Below are positions 7,816 through 12,663 of a stretch of 64,000 nt of DNA, one piece after another. The notes beneath the pieces were generated by a model, which was given only the letters and a program-made list of their open reading frames with translations, made no database searches and had not been told where the DNA came from. This stretch comes from Frateuria defendens (GTDB taxonomy: Bacteria > Pseudomonadota > Gammaproteobacteria > Xanthomonadales > Rhodanobacteraceae). The position numbers were made by a program, and so were the translations under genes. The DNA is taken from assembly GCF_001182895.1 (NCBI RefSeq), contig NZ_LFQR01000007.1:1-64000 (forward strand), written 5' to 3'. The first letter of the stretch is position 1, and each line of letters starts with the position of its first letter.

Positions 7816-8562
7816 CTATTCCGGCGCGCCCAGCGCTTGCAGCGTAGCCAGCAGCGTCTGGCGGAAGCGCGGCAGGCAGCCGTCGTCCTCCATGCCGCGC
7901 GCCAACTGGCGTTGCAGACGCATCGCCTGCACGGCCAGCGCGTCGGCGCCGCAGAAGCCGCAGGCGGAGCGCAGCCGGTGCAATCGTTCGGCGAAGCCGG
8001 TGGCATCGTCGCCGAGCCGGTCCAGCTCGCGGTGCAGCGTGGCCAGTTCCTCGCGCAGCAGGCCGCGCAGGGCGTGCAGGGTGGCGAGGTCGCCGCTGCT
8101 GGCCAGTGCCGCCTCATCGTCGAGCAGCGCCGCGTGCGGCCGCCCCTCGGGACGGACCAGGGCGACCACGTAGCGCAGGTCGTCCACCGTGCAGGGCTTG
8201 AGCAGCACCTCGCTGAAGCCGGCCTCGAGCAGTGCGCGGCGCTCGGCCTGCGAGCACTCCGCGCTGGTCGCCATGGCGAGGCTGGCGGTCGAGGCCGCGG
8301 CATCGTCGCCGCGCAGGCGGCCCAGCACCTCGCGGGCGCCGCCACCGGGCATGCGGCGGTCGAGCAGCAGCAGGTCGAAGCGCTCGCCGCGGGCCAGGGC
8401 CAGTGCGGCGCCGCCGTCGGCGCAGGTCTCGGCCGCGAGGCCGAGGTGGCGCAGCGCATCGCCGAGAAAGCGCCGGCTGGCCGGGTCGTCGTCGGCCACC
8501 AGTACGCGCAGTGCCGCGGCGGCTCCGGCCGCGAAGACGTCGCTGGAGGAGGGCGCTGGCAT
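7816..8562 (-). CDS. Response regulator receiver protein with C-terminal Hpt-like domain
   Basis: The 248-residue protein joins a receiver domain (about 18-130) to an Hpt-like helical bundle (about 150-245). The receiver has the acidic pocket VADDD, the phospho-acceptor Asp68 in LLLLDRRMPGG and the conserved Lys122 in LLKP. The Hpt-like part has ERLHRLRSACG around His195, close to the HxLKGS pattern of phosphotransfer domains. There is no DNA-binding or enzymatic output domain and no kinase gene nearby, so it probably relays phosphate for an unlinked hybrid kinase. It is transcribed divergently from the YdbH-like gene, with 46 bases between start codons. Confidence 0.75.
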   Translation of the reverse strand: MPAPSSSDVFAAGAAAALRVLVADDDPASRRFLGDALRHLGLAAETCADGGAALALARGERFDLLLLDRRMPGGGAREVLGRLRGDDAAASTASLAMATSAECSQAERRALLEAGFSEVLLKPCTVDDLRYVVALVRPEGRPHAALLDDEAALASSGDLATLHALRGLLREELATLHRELDRLGDDATGFAERLHRLRSACGFCGADALAVQAMRLQRQLARGMEDDGCLPRFRQTLLATLQALGAPE

Positions 8563-8608: not shown

Positions 8609-10630
8609 ATGCGCTCTACATCAAGTCTCCCGCTGCTTTGCCTGGGTCTGCTGCTCGGCCTGCTGCCGATCATGCCGGCACGCGCCGATATCCAGCTGAC
8701 GGCCAAGGTCGTCGAGGTGCCGGGCGTGCGCCTGCAGGACGTGAACCTCCAAGTCGGCGACGACGGCCAGGGCGGCCTGCGCCTGCGGCTGCGCGCCGGC
8801 AAGGCCGACGTGCCGGCGATGGGCTGGCGGCGGCTGGCGCTCGGCCTGGACGGCACGCTGCAGCGCGACGCCGACCTGCGCTGGCTGCTCGATGGCGTCG
8901 TGCAGCTGAAGAACGCGCCGGGCGGGGCGCTGGGCAACACGCACCTCAGCCTGGCGGTGGACGAGTCGGCCAACACCCTGCAGCTGGACCTCGACCAGGA
9001 CAAGGCCACCGCGAGCGTGGCCATCCCGCTGGACCAGCCCAGCCATGCCCAGATCAGCCTGCAGAGCCTGCCGGCCGGCTGGCTGCAGGGGCTGCTGGGC
9101 ACGCTGTGGTCCGGGCGCGCCACCGGCGGCCGGCTCGACGCGAAGCTGGCGCTGGACACCAGCGAGGACGGCGTGCAGTCCTCCGGCGACTTCACCCTGC
9201 ACGGCGTCGGGTTCGACACGCCCAACGGCAAGCTGGCCGGGCAGGGCCTGAGCGGCAGCGGGCGGCTGGACATCGACACCACCGGCGAGGGGGCGCGCAT
9301 CGATTCGGATGCCCTGCTGCAGGGCGGCGAACTGCTGCTGGGGCCGCTCTACGCCCGGCTGCCCAACCATCCGGTGCAGCTCGGCCTGAGCGCCGGCGCC
9401 AAGGGCGGCGCGCTGGAACTGGACCGCCTGCGGGTGAGCGACGCCGACGCGCTGCAACTGGACGGCGCGCTGGCCTTCGATGCCCGCGGCGACCTCGCCA
9501 AGCTGCGCCTGGACCACTTCCACGCCGGCTTCCCCGCCGCCTACGAGCGCTATGGCCGCGGCTGGCTGGCCACGCTCGGCCTGCGCGACCTGCGCATCCG
9601 CGGCACCGTCGAAGGCGGCATCGACCTGCGCGCCGACGGCCCGCACAGCTTCGCCTTCAACACCGACGACCTCGACCTCGCCGCTGGCGACGGCCACCTG
9701 GCGGTGCAGGGCCTGCGCGGCGGGCTGGACTGGTCGGCGCGCGGCGAGCGGCCGGCCACCGGCCTGGCCTGGCAGCGGCTGCGGCTCTACCGTATCGAGC
9801 ACAGCGGGGCGCAGTCGCGCTGGCAGAGCCGCAACGGCCGGCTGGACCTGCAGCGGCCGGTGGAGGTGGCGGTGCTCGGCGGGCGCCTGCACCTGAACGA
9901 CCTCAAGTGGCAGCCGGCCGCCGCCAAGGGCGACCGCCTGACCGCCTCACTGGCCGTCACCGGCGTCGACATGGGCGCCTTCAGCAAGGCGATGGGCTGG
10001 CCGCCGTTCCCGGGCACGGTGGGTGGCGCGGTACCGGCCTTGCGCTGGGCGGACGATCGCCTGGAGCTGGACGGCGGGCTTTCGGTCAACGTCTTCGACG
10101 GCTTCGTCGACATCACCCGGCTCTCGCTGCAGCAGCCGTTCGGGTCGAGCCCGGTGCTGGCCGGCGACCTCAGCCTGCGCCAGCTCGACCTGGGCGCGAT
10201 CACCAGCGTGTTCGACTTCGGCAGCATCACCGGGCGGCTGGACGGCTCGGTGGGCGCGCTGCGGCTGGTCGACTGGAACCCGGTCGCCTTCGACGCCCGG
10301 CTGCTCGCCGGCGGCGGCGGGCGGATCAGCCAGCGGGCGGTGAACAACCTCACCAGCGTGGGCGGGGGCGGCATCGCCGGCGGCCTGCAGGGCGCCGTGC
10401 TGCGCATGTTCAAGACCTTCGGCTACCGGCGCATCGGCCTCAACTGCGTGCTGCAGGGGGCGGTATGCCACATGAGCGGTCTACAGGGCGATGGGGACGG
10501 CTACACTATCGTCGAGGGCAGCGGCTTGCCGCACCTGCAGGTGATCGGCCACCAGCGCGAAGTGGACTGGCCCACCGTGGTGCGCCGGCTCAAGGCGGCC
10601 ACGGAAGGGGCGGCGCCGGAGGTGCGCTGA
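8609..10630 (+). CDS. YdbH-like AsmA-family protein (inter-membrane lipid transport)
   Basis: The 673-residue protein begins with a signal sequence or anchor (about 1-26, ending ARADI). The rest is repetitive beta-rich text with alternating hydrophobic residues, as in the long beta-groove AsmA/TamB/YdbH proteins that span the periplasm and move phospholipids to the outer membrane. A YdbH assignment is favoured because the next gene encodes a small lipoprotein with a DUF1318 (YdbL) domain, mirroring the enterobacterial ydbH-ynbE-ydbL set. The frame is open upstream to 8189, but that stretch lies inside the opposite-strand regulator gene. The ATG at 8609 gives a clean signal peptide. Confidence 0.72.
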   Translation: MRSTSSLPLLCLGLLLGLLPIMPARADIQLTAKVVEVPGVRLQDVNLQVGDDGQGGLRLRLRAGKADVPAMGWRRLALGLDGTLQRDADLRWLLDGVVQLKNAPGGALGNTHLSLAVDESANTLQLDLDQDKATASVAIPLDQPSHAQISLQSLPAGWLQGLLGTLWSGRATGGRLDAKLALDTSEDGVQSSGDFTLHGVGFDTPNGKLAGQGLSGSGRLDIDTTGEGARIDSDALLQGGELLLGPLYARLPNHPVQLGLSAGAKGGALELDRLRVSDADALQLDGALAFDARGDLAKLRLDHFHAGFPAAYERYGRGWLATLGLRDLRIRGTVEGGIDLRADGPHSFAFNTDDLDLAAGDGHLAVQGLRGGLDWSARGERPATGLAWQRLRLYRIEHSGAQSRWQSRNGRLDLQRPVEVAVLGGRLHLNDLKWQPAAAKGDRLTASLAVTGVDMGAFSKAMGWPPFPGTVGGAVPALRWADDRLELDGGLSVNVFDGFVDITRLSLQQPFGSSPVLAGDLSLRQLDLGAITSVFDFGSITGRLDGSVGALRLVDWNPVAFDARLLAGGGGRISQRAVNNLTSVGGGGIAGGLQGAVLRMFKTFGYRRIGLNCVLQGAVCHMSGLQGDGDGYTIVEGSGLPHLQVIGHQREVDWPTVVRRLKAATEGAAPEVR

Positions 10631-10676
10631 GCGCCGACCGCCGCCGGCGCCCACCCGTCACGAAAGGAGTCCGCGT

Positions 10677-11282
10677 ATGCGCAAGCCATTGCTCGTGGTG
10701 CTGTTCACGCTGGCCGCGATGCTGGCCGGCTGCGTCACCATCAACGTCTACTTTCCCGAGGCCGCGGCGCAGAAGGCCGCCGACCAGTTCATCGGCACCG
10801 TGATCGACCAGGACGCCGACAAGGCCGCCAAGCCGGCGCCGCCGGCGGCGAAGAAGAACGGCGGCGGGCCGAACCCGGCCGCGATGCTGCTCGACCTGCT
10901 GGTGCCGGCGGCGCAGGCCGCCGAGACGCCCGACATCCGCATCCAGACCGCCGCCACCGAGGCCATCCACGGCCGCATGCGCCAGCGCTTCCAGGACGTG
11001 CTCAAGCCCCTGCTGGACAGCGGCGCGGTGGGCTTCACCCGCGACGGCCTGGTGGCCGTGCACGACGCCGGCAAGGTGCCGCTCGCCAGCCGCGCCCAGG
11101 CCGGCGCCGCGGTGGCCGACGAGAACCGCGACCGCAGCGCGCTGTACCGCGAGGTGGCCAACGCCAACGGCCATCCGGAGTGGGAGGCACAGATCCGCAG
11201 CACCTTCGCGCAGGGATGGATCGAGCGGGCGCACGCCGGCTGGTATTATCAGGACGCTTCCGGACGCTGGACGCAGAAATAA
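10677..11282 (+). CDS. DUF1318 (YdbL-like) lipoprotein with YnbE-like N-terminus
   Basis: The 201-residue product has a lipoprotein signal with lipobox LAGC and acylated Cys19, followed by VTINVYFPEAAAQKAAD. A Pro/Ala/Lys linker (about 50-65) leads to a DUF1318 domain ending RWTQK, similar to the WLRK end of YdbL. In Escherichia coli, YnbE is a small outer-membrane lipoprotein that caps the YdbH bridge and YdbL is a periplasmic chaperone for it. Here one polypeptide seems to carry both parts. It lies 46 bases behind the YdbH-like gene with an AAAGGAG ribosome site. Confidence 0.72.
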   Translation: MRKPLLVVLFTLAAMLAGCVTINVYFPEAAAQKAADQFIGTVIDQDADKAAKPAPPAAKKNGGGPNPAAMLLDLLVPAAQAAETPDIRIQTAATEAIHGRMRQRFQDVLKPLLDSGAVGFTRDGLVAVHDAGKVPLASRAQAGAAVADENRDRSALYREVANANGHPEWEAQIRSTFAQGWIERAHAGWYYQDASGRWTQK

Positions 11283-11352: not shown

Positions 11353-12663
11353 ATGAAAGCATTCGAAGCCACCATCACCGACCTCAGCCACGACGGCCGC
11401 GGCGTCGCGCGCATCGACGGCAAGGCCGTGTTCGTCAGCGGCGCCCTGCAGGGCGAAACGGTGCGGGCGAGCCTGCGCAAGCGCCACCGCAGCTTCGACG
11501 AGGCCGAGGTGGTGGAATTGCTGAGCCGCTCGCCGCACCGCGTCGAGCCGCGCTGCGAGCACTTCGGCACCTGCGGCGGCTGCGCGCTGCAGCACATGGA
11601 CGCGACGGCGCAGATCGAGGCCAAGCAGCGCGTGCTGGCCGACAACTTCGCGCGTATCGGCAAGGTGGAGCCCGAAAGCTGGCTGCCGCCGCTGGTCGAC
11701 GAGCCCTGGGGCTACCGCCGCAAGGGTCGCCTGTCGGTACGCGCGGTGGCGAAGAAGGGCCGCGTGCTGGTGGGCTTCCGCGAGGAAAGCAACCCGCGCT
11801 TCGTCGCCGACATCCGGCACTGCCACGTGGTGCACCCGGCGCTGGGGCCGAAGATCGGCCTGCTGGCCGAGCTGATCTCAGCCATGGATGCGGCGGCGGA
11901 CATCCCGCAGGTCGAGTTCGCCGCCGGCGACGACACCTTCGCGCTGGTGTTCCGCCACCTGCAGCCCCTGAGCGAGCGCGACAGCGCCGCGCTGGCCGCC
12001 TTCGGCCGGGAGCACGGCTTTGCCATCTACCTGCAGCCCGGCGGCGTGAGCAGCGTGCATCCGCTGTGGCCGGAGGCGCCGCGGCTGGCCTTCCGGCTGT
12101 CGGCGGGCGAGGGCGTGGATGAGGTGGAACTGGAGTTCCAGCCGCTGGACTTCGTGCAGGTCAACGCCGGCCTCAACCGCCGCATGATGGCGCGCACGCT
12201 GGAACTGCTCGACCCGCAGCCCACCGACCGCGTGCTCGACCTCTTCTGCGGCCTGGGCAACTTCACCCTGCCGATCGCCCGCCGCGTGGCCGAGGTGGCG
12301 GGGGTGGAGGGCGAGCACGGCCTGGTGGCGCGCGCGGGCGAGAACGCGCAGCGCAACGGCCTCGCCAATGCGCGCTTCCACGTCGCCAACCTGTTCGAGG
12401 ACCAGCGCCAGGCGAACTGGGCGCGCGAGCCGTGGGACAAGCTGTTGCTCGACCCGCCGCGCGCCGGCGCCGACCAGGTGCTGGCCTACCTGCCGCACAA
12501 GCAGACCCGGCGCATCGTCTACGTCTCCTGCCACCCGGCCTCGCTGGCGCGCGATGCCGGCATCCTAGTACACCAGCACGGCTTCCGGCTGGTGTCGGCG
12601 GGGGTGATGGACATGTTCCCGCATACCGCACACGTCGAATCCATCGCGCTGTTCGAACGGTAG
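11353..12663 (+). CDS. rlmD: 23S rRNA (uracil-1939-C5)-methyltransferase RlmD
   Basis: RlmD methylates U1939 of 23S rRNA using S-adenosylmethionine. The 436-residue protein begins with a TRAM domain (about 1-60). An iron-sulfur cluster site follows, with three cysteines in CEHFGTCGGC and a fourth in RHCHVVHP. The Rossmann methyltransferase domain has LDLFCGLGNFTLPIA, and the catalytic Cys lies in YVSCHPASLARD. Length and architecture match the family. Confidence 0.95.
   Translation: MKAFEATITDLSHDGRGVARIDGKAVFVSGALQGETVRASLRKRHRSFDEAEVVELLSRSPHRVEPRCEHFGTCGGCALQHMDATAQIEAKQRVLADNFARIGKVEPESWLPPLVDEPWGYRRKGRLSVRAVAKKGRVLVGFREESNPRFVADIRHCHVVHPALGPKIGLLAELISAMDAAADIPQVEFAAGDDTFALVFRHLQPLSERDSAALAAFGREHGFAIYLQPGGVSSVHPLWPEAPRLAFRLSAGEGVDEVELEFQPLDFVQVNAGLNRRMMARTLELLDPQPTDRVLDLFCGLGNFTLPIARRVAEVAGVEGEHGLVARAGENAQRNGLANARFHVANLFEDQRQANWAREPWDKLLLDPPRAGADQVLAYLPHKQTRRIVYVSCHPASLARDAGILVHQHGFRLVSAGVMDMFPHTAHVESIALFER

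Follow-up and report, generated by a model that had tools for sequence, protein, structure and literature searches.

The locus and its two genes

The window, a 64,000-nucleotide stretch of the Frateuria defendens genome (4.19 Mb, 99.9% complete), carries at 8609-11282 a two-gene locus whose products, P0001 and P0002, have the positions and the lengths of 673 and 201 residues given by an earlier sequence-only reading. The genes lie on the same strand with 46 bases between them. The best-scoring named relatives of P0002 are from Rhodanobacter, Frateuria, Dyella and Fulvimonas. The features of the locus are as follows.

8609-10630, + strand: P0001, YdbH-like beta-groove protein of 673 aa (open reading frame; C-terminal profile match to YdbH; all-beta model of the relative L033)
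8609-8686, + strand: apparent cleavable Sec signal, P0001 residues 1-26, ending MPARA with D after the cut (read from the sequence)
10076-10444, + strand: P0001 residues 490-612, matching the classical YdbH C-terminal part (hhalign probability 96.9, E 1.5e-10)
10677-11282, + strand: P0002, fused lipoprotein and DUF1318/YdbL precursor of 201 aa (open reading frame, Pfam)
10677-10730, + strand: lipoprotein signal peptide, residues 1-18 (lipobox LAGC; codon of the lipidated Cys19 at 10731-10733)
10731-10808, + strand: N-terminal lipoprotein module, residues 19-44, CVTINVYFP plus helix (near invariant; helix pLDDT 94 in L033)
10884-10904, + strand: hydrophobic patch MLLDLLV, residues 70-76 (hydrophobic columns kept; best 9-mer hydropathy 2.38)
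10911-10919, + strand: A79-Q80-A81, signal-peptidase-I-like site, predicted cut after A81 (conservation among fused relatives)
10989-11279, + strand: DUF1318/YdbL domain, residues 105-201 (Pfam; fold match to 28oj)

Immediately upstream of P0001, on the opposite strand (7816-8562, - strand), a gene encodes receiver and Hpt domains in a single protein (Pfam), and downstream of the pair lies an RlmD/TrmA-type RNA methyltransferase gene (11353-12663, + strand). An rlmD-type gene is found just downstream in 34/71 distant fused loci, in 4/6 split-labelled loci and in 0/23 classical trio loci, counts in which loci with short flanks may conceal additional cases.

A groove protein distantly related to YdbH

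P0001 had been described as AsmA/YdbH-like. The description holds for the C-terminal ~120 residues, and there at the level of profile-profile comparison only, in which a profile of 46 P0001 homologues was aligned by hhalign with one built from 19 classical YdbH proteins; a Pfam search of P0001 itself gave no match, PF11739 (YdbH) included. PF11739 weakly touches (E <= 0.01) 2/31 P0001 homologues and strongly matches 8/8 classical controls, and no classical YdbH protein was recovered by an iterated HMM seeded with P0001 (E 1e-5). Both HMMs match L255 and L267, which come from elsewhere in the phylum, and intermediates between the P0001 family and YdbH therefore exist. The model of the close relative L033, a chain of 858 residues with the lipoprotein included (mean pLDDT 86), is long and mostly beta; it also has short helices, and the helical DUF1318 domain comes last. 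A known structural relative of the groove part was sought with Foldseek/VIA, where the best rows were ApoB100 (rmsd 13.6) and barrel proteins (rmsd 6 or more), none of them clear.

The P0001 family also appears to differ from classical YdbH at its N-terminus. By a rule of thumb for cleavage, and with start codons uncertain, an [AV]xA site follows the N-terminal hydrophobic core in 110/129 P0001 homologues as against 6/19 classical YdbH proteins. From its sequence, P0001 looks secreted rather than membrane-anchored, unlike classical YdbH with its long transmembrane segment.

P0002 joins a small lipoprotein to a YdbL-type protein

P0002 genuinely fuses a small lipoprotein to a YdbL-type protein, and its gene adjoins a YdbH-like gene. 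Its lipobox, LAGC, places the lipidated residue at Cys19, as the sequence-only reading had it, and the equivalent position is Cys in 148/148 aligned fused relatives (the alignment rows are cut at that Cys). The segment after Cys19 is conserved, CVTINVYFPEAAAQKAADQF, and leads into a low-complexity linker rich in Pro, Ala, Lys and Gly, corresponding to the Pro/Ala/Lys linker already noted. The assignment of the C-terminus to DUF1318/YdbL was borne out for residues 105-201 by PF07027 (77.6 bits, E 1.1e-21), well past the curated cut-off of 27. The fold was compared using the model of the close relative L033 in place of P0002: its DUF1318 domain superimposes on 28oj, a YdbL crystal structure deposited as a probable chaperone-like protein YdbL, with Z 8.1 and rmsd 1.8 over 86/87 residues at 30% identity, and Foldseek gave a target TM of 0.80 for the L033 model against the YdbL structure.

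The N-terminal half is a different matter. It had been read as a YnbE-like acylated N-terminus, a reading open to refutation by the lack of any relation of residues 19-40 to YnbE, and at the level of sequence no such relation was detected: PF13617 (YnbE) does not match P0002 at E 10, and hhalign of the first 28 mature residues against a YnbE profile gives a probability of 0.03% (global) or 1.1% (local). Homology to YnbE by sequence was accordingly rejected, the common TIN letters being too short to count. A further suggestion, that an N-terminal strand extends the beta-groove, found no support in AlphaFold2 models of L033, in which VTINVYF is coil both in the lipoprotein alone and in a single chain linking groove protein and lipoprotein (CVTIN at pLDDT under 50 in the latter). 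This is a weak test: the two proteins were joined into one chain by reading the stop between the in-frame L033 genes as Gly, and the link contains the lipoprotein signal peptide. The helix after VTINVYF is the same in the lone lipoprotein (pLDDT 94) and in the linked model, and so the partner adds no visible contact. Position, size and the YdbL neighbor favour the same job as YnbE for this module.

Distribution of the fused form

P0002 is the sole DUF1318 protein of the Frateuria defendens genome, where neither PF13617 (at E 0.001) nor PF11739 has a match; the separate ynbE and ydbL genes that would have spoken against a fusion are thus not found elsewhere in that genome. The fusion is not special to this genome, nor is it universal among relatives, a point the sequence-only reading had raised: DUF1318 occurs in 44 of 61 relatives, fused in 42/44 and accompanied by a separate YnbE in the other two (G043 and G053), which carry YnbE and YdbL as distinct genes. 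In a sample of 274 genomes of the class, DUF1318 was found in 77, PF13617 in 25 and both in 24. The 53 genomes with DUF1318 only comprise 50 with the fused form, two with fused variants (G101, G241) and one (G322) with an apparently frame-broken fusion, its locus L292 carrying the rule label "split" and being excluded from the four split lineages described below. DUF1318 is present in 122 of 398 genomes of the phylum, only part of which were classified. The fusion is old and common.

Altogether 179 fused loci were collected, some genomes appearing twice through overlapping collections; 13 are identical in mature sequence, leaving 166 unique. A groove gene adjoins the fused gene in 168/179 loci (duplicate genomes included). 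For the exceptions, 10 of 11 genomes were searched and 10/10 carry a groove gene elsewhere.

Several other arrangements were seen. L294 and L296, labelled "other" by rule, are counted as fused with variant N-termini (CATTNAYFP and CTTNKRYFP). L260-L265 are lipoproteins of another type that match DUF1318 weakly; they start C..PL(L/V)E(V/I)..VDERTA(L/I)ENQ and lack the CVTINVYFP motif. L302 (G138:C39), which looks unrelated, is an additional DUF1318 match in a genome with a fused gene. Three genomes without DUF1318 were searched for the groove gene; two have neither a groove nor a fused gene, and G006 keeps a diverged groove gene (L321, 712-2902, E 5e-74) with an rlmD-like gene directly downstream of it. 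Between these two G006 genes there is no room for a lipoprotein-DUF1318 gene, and the locus is a natural loss of that gene.

Split forms within the fused family

In four lineages (L268, L270, L271 and L269/L304, the last pair from one genome) the two modules of the fused protein occur as two adjacent genes. The lipoproteins have 36-46 mature residues, start CVTINIYFP and match no Pfam family above its cut-off; the DUF1318 gene that follows has its own signal peptide, for example MKRFMAVGLLLVGLMAAMLVQA, with ADMEINTP after the cut (the cut position is a reading from sequence). In a groove-protein tree of 49 rows, which takes fused rows from elsewhere in the phylum as its root and omits the too short L285, the split forms are one clade with support of 100 (SH-aLRT), nested inside the fused forms. 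A DUF1318 tree of 78 rows and 115 columns, with 21 classical YdbL rows as outgroup, also places the four split forms inside the fused set, with 97 at one enclosing node, though not as a monophyletic group. Because both trees nest them in this way the split forms look like later splits; in this subfamily the fused gene seems to be the older state, separated afterwards on one or a few occasions. Splitting inside a fused family is also what one would expect of halves that were already functioning separately.

An invariant [AV]-x-A site between the two halves

What is new here is a strictly kept [AV]-x-A between the halves of every fused protein. Among 148 aligned fused proteins, position -3 is Ala in 148/148 and -1 is Ala in 147/148, the remaining row having a gap. 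The fold alignment leaves out L034, L106 and L104 for their odd ends, and about 30 further rows were set aside as redundant. Over the 166 unique fused sequences, -3 is A in 164 and V in 2, -1 is A in 165 with one gap (L041, where the gap is misplaced, since the protein reads PAAYAD), and [AV]-x-A is found in 166/166. An alignment-free count gives the same picture: [AV]xA lies within 11 residues before the DUF1318 anchor in 161/165 sequences, where shuffled linkers lead one to expect 56.7, and in 50/52 of the non-redundant set against 15.1 expected (L300 has no anchor, and L099 and L301, both in the non-redundant set, fell outside the 11-residue range but read AMA and ANA in their alignment rows). 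The variants L294 (AYA) and L296 (THA) also fit a rule of small residues at -3 and -1, their sites lying after a longer hydrophobic stretch and farther from the DUF1318 domain.

Outside the site the linker is variable and is predicted to be disordered. In the 858-residue L033 model the site (A736, A738) falls within residues 707-740, at pLDDT under 50, and in the model of the lone lipoprotein it occupies residues 61-63 within a stretch (30-65) that is likewise under 50. For 53 sequences under 60% identity the entropies at -3, -2 and -1 are 0.23, 2.84 and 0.0 bits. That the AxA is a functionless relic of an ancestral YdbL signal peptide, as the presence of signal peptides at the same place in classical YdbL genes might suggest, is very improbable in light of these values, for the linker has otherwise changed freely and the AxA is invariant across the same 53 sequences.

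Signal peptidase I recognizes its substrates by the residues at -3 and -1, and the small residues at these positions, the free -2 and their recurrence in all 166 unique sequences suggest a cut. The position of [AV]-x-A moreover coincides with the end of the signal peptide of the split DUF1318 relatives. An internal translation start for the YdbL half was also considered and was rejected, since only 19/53 sequences have a Met in the 25 residues ahead of the site.

The stretch that precedes the site has some of the character of a signal core. Its best 9-mer has a mean hydropathy of 1.81, against -0.65 for the rest of the linker, and lies below the 2.31-3.67 of the signal peptides of the four split forms; it holds Asp in 27/53 non-redundant fused sequences, and a basic residue upstream of it is absent in 9/53. 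Such a patch falls short of a true signal core, and it follows a stretch already exported, so that its orientation towards the protease would be unusual: a normal signal core spans the membrane with its N-terminus inside, and a cut here would need the membrane surface or another enzyme. The site might instead be kept because the groove protein or a trafficking factor binds it, or because a different protease cuts there. Invariance speaks for selection without naming the factor, and the preceding patch, LLD.L.VP, is partly conserved too; the free -2, the replacement of the -3 residue by V (or by T in L296) and the identical site in the true signal peptides of the split forms all fit signal peptidase I. 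A rhomboid-type site is expected to keep a large residue four positions before the cut, and P, A, S or V is found there. On balance this alternative seems rather improbable.

Proposed processing of P0002

The sequence-only reading had envisaged that fusion leaves the chaperone permanently tethered at the outer membrane. YdbL acts as a chaperone, and an intact P0002 would hold its YdbL-like half beside the groove protein. Such a tether would agree with the single open frame from lipobox to DUF1318 in P0002 and in the 179 loci (duplicates included), with the age of the fused state and with a linker of sufficient length. It leaves unexplained, though, why invariance within a linker predicted to be disordered is restricted to -3 and -1 and why the site coincides with the signal-peptide end of the split forms, in which the YdbL-like protein is untethered. 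An invariant AxA at the joint argues against a permanent tether; we consider an intact fusion unlikely, if somewhat less so than a binding motif or a different protease, and the YdbL half is probably released.

The likeliest reading of the sequence comparisons, to which we would assign a probability of roughly 0.58, is that P0002 is a polyprotein precursor cut after A81, which would give products of 63 and 120 residues. P0002 would be exported by Sec and receive its lipid at Cys19. In E. coli, the Lol +2 rule has Asp at that position decide the membrane destination of a lipoprotein; the +2 residue of P0002 is Val, not Asp, which would send it to the outer membrane. A protease, most likely signal peptidase I, would then cleave after A81, which would leave a 63-residue outer-membrane lipoprotein (VTINVYF plus helix) that may dock the groove protein, and would free the 120-residue YdbL-like protein into the periplasm, one to one with the lipoprotein. 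The sequences themselves show the fusion and how widely it occurs, its partner gene, the naturally split forms and the invariant AxA in a linker predicted to be disordered; we infer the cut, its protease and the docking, and, by analogy with YdbH-YnbE, the lipid-transfer function. On this reading the locus encodes another, widely distributed counterpart of the YdbH-YnbE-YdbL system.

Should the cut be real, a common envelope lipid-transfer system would come from a polyprotein that fixes a one-to-one ratio of its products, and signal peptidase I would work on an unusual internal site. A wider proposal is more tentative and falls somewhat short of even odds. It holds that in many Gammaproteobacteria, and in some lineages elsewhere in the phylum, a single polyprotein supplies both the outer-membrane lipoprotein and its chaperone, with signal peptidase I cutting inside a chain already exported, and that a groove protein with no inner-membrane anchor forms a bridge held from the outer membrane only, which would have to obtain its lipid by touching the inner membrane or with the help of some further partner. 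A groove protein of that kind would call the simple continuous-bridge picture into question.

Comparison with known systems

The fused form is not mentioned in the parts consulted of the YdbH/YnbE/YdbL literature (PMC11784454, PMC8593681, PMC12977461, PMC10900882); the main 2024 PNAS paper on YdbH-YnbE lies outside this comparison, and absence from print is not claimed. A literature search, judged by titles, returned nothing relevant on bacterial polyproteins with internal signal peptides, and for DUF1318 a single match, unrelated by its title.

One precursor that yields two envelope proteins, with signal peptidase implicated, is FbcH, the cytochrome b/c1 precursor of Bradyrhizobium. The internal signal of FbcH follows transmembrane helices and has the normal orientation, whereas that of P0002 is weak and comes after an exported lipoprotein stretch.

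The closest known system is the YdbH-YnbE-YdbL intermembrane phospholipid bridge of E. coli, in which groove protein, small lipoprotein and DUF1318 protein come in the same order. The DUF1318 domain has the YdbL fold in both, and P0001 shares the C-terminal part of YdbH. The lipoprotein and the DUF1318 protein are separate in E. coli but fused in Frateuria, the N-terminal module of P0002 has no detectable sequence relation to YnbE, and the P0001 family is shorter than classical YdbH, mostly beyond the reach of PF11739 and apparently secreted rather than membrane-anchored. Pfam searches for YnbE or YdbH consequently miss the fused system: 53/77 DUF1318-bearing genomes of the class sample have no PF13617 match. 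The split pairs of CVTIN lipoprotein and DUF1318 protein (L268, L270, L271, L269/L304) have the same modules and the same partner family as the fused form, from which they differ in being two genes, the DUF1318 gene with a full signal peptide of its own. The existence of both split and fused forms amounts to a natural experiment on the way YdbL and its lipoprotein act together.
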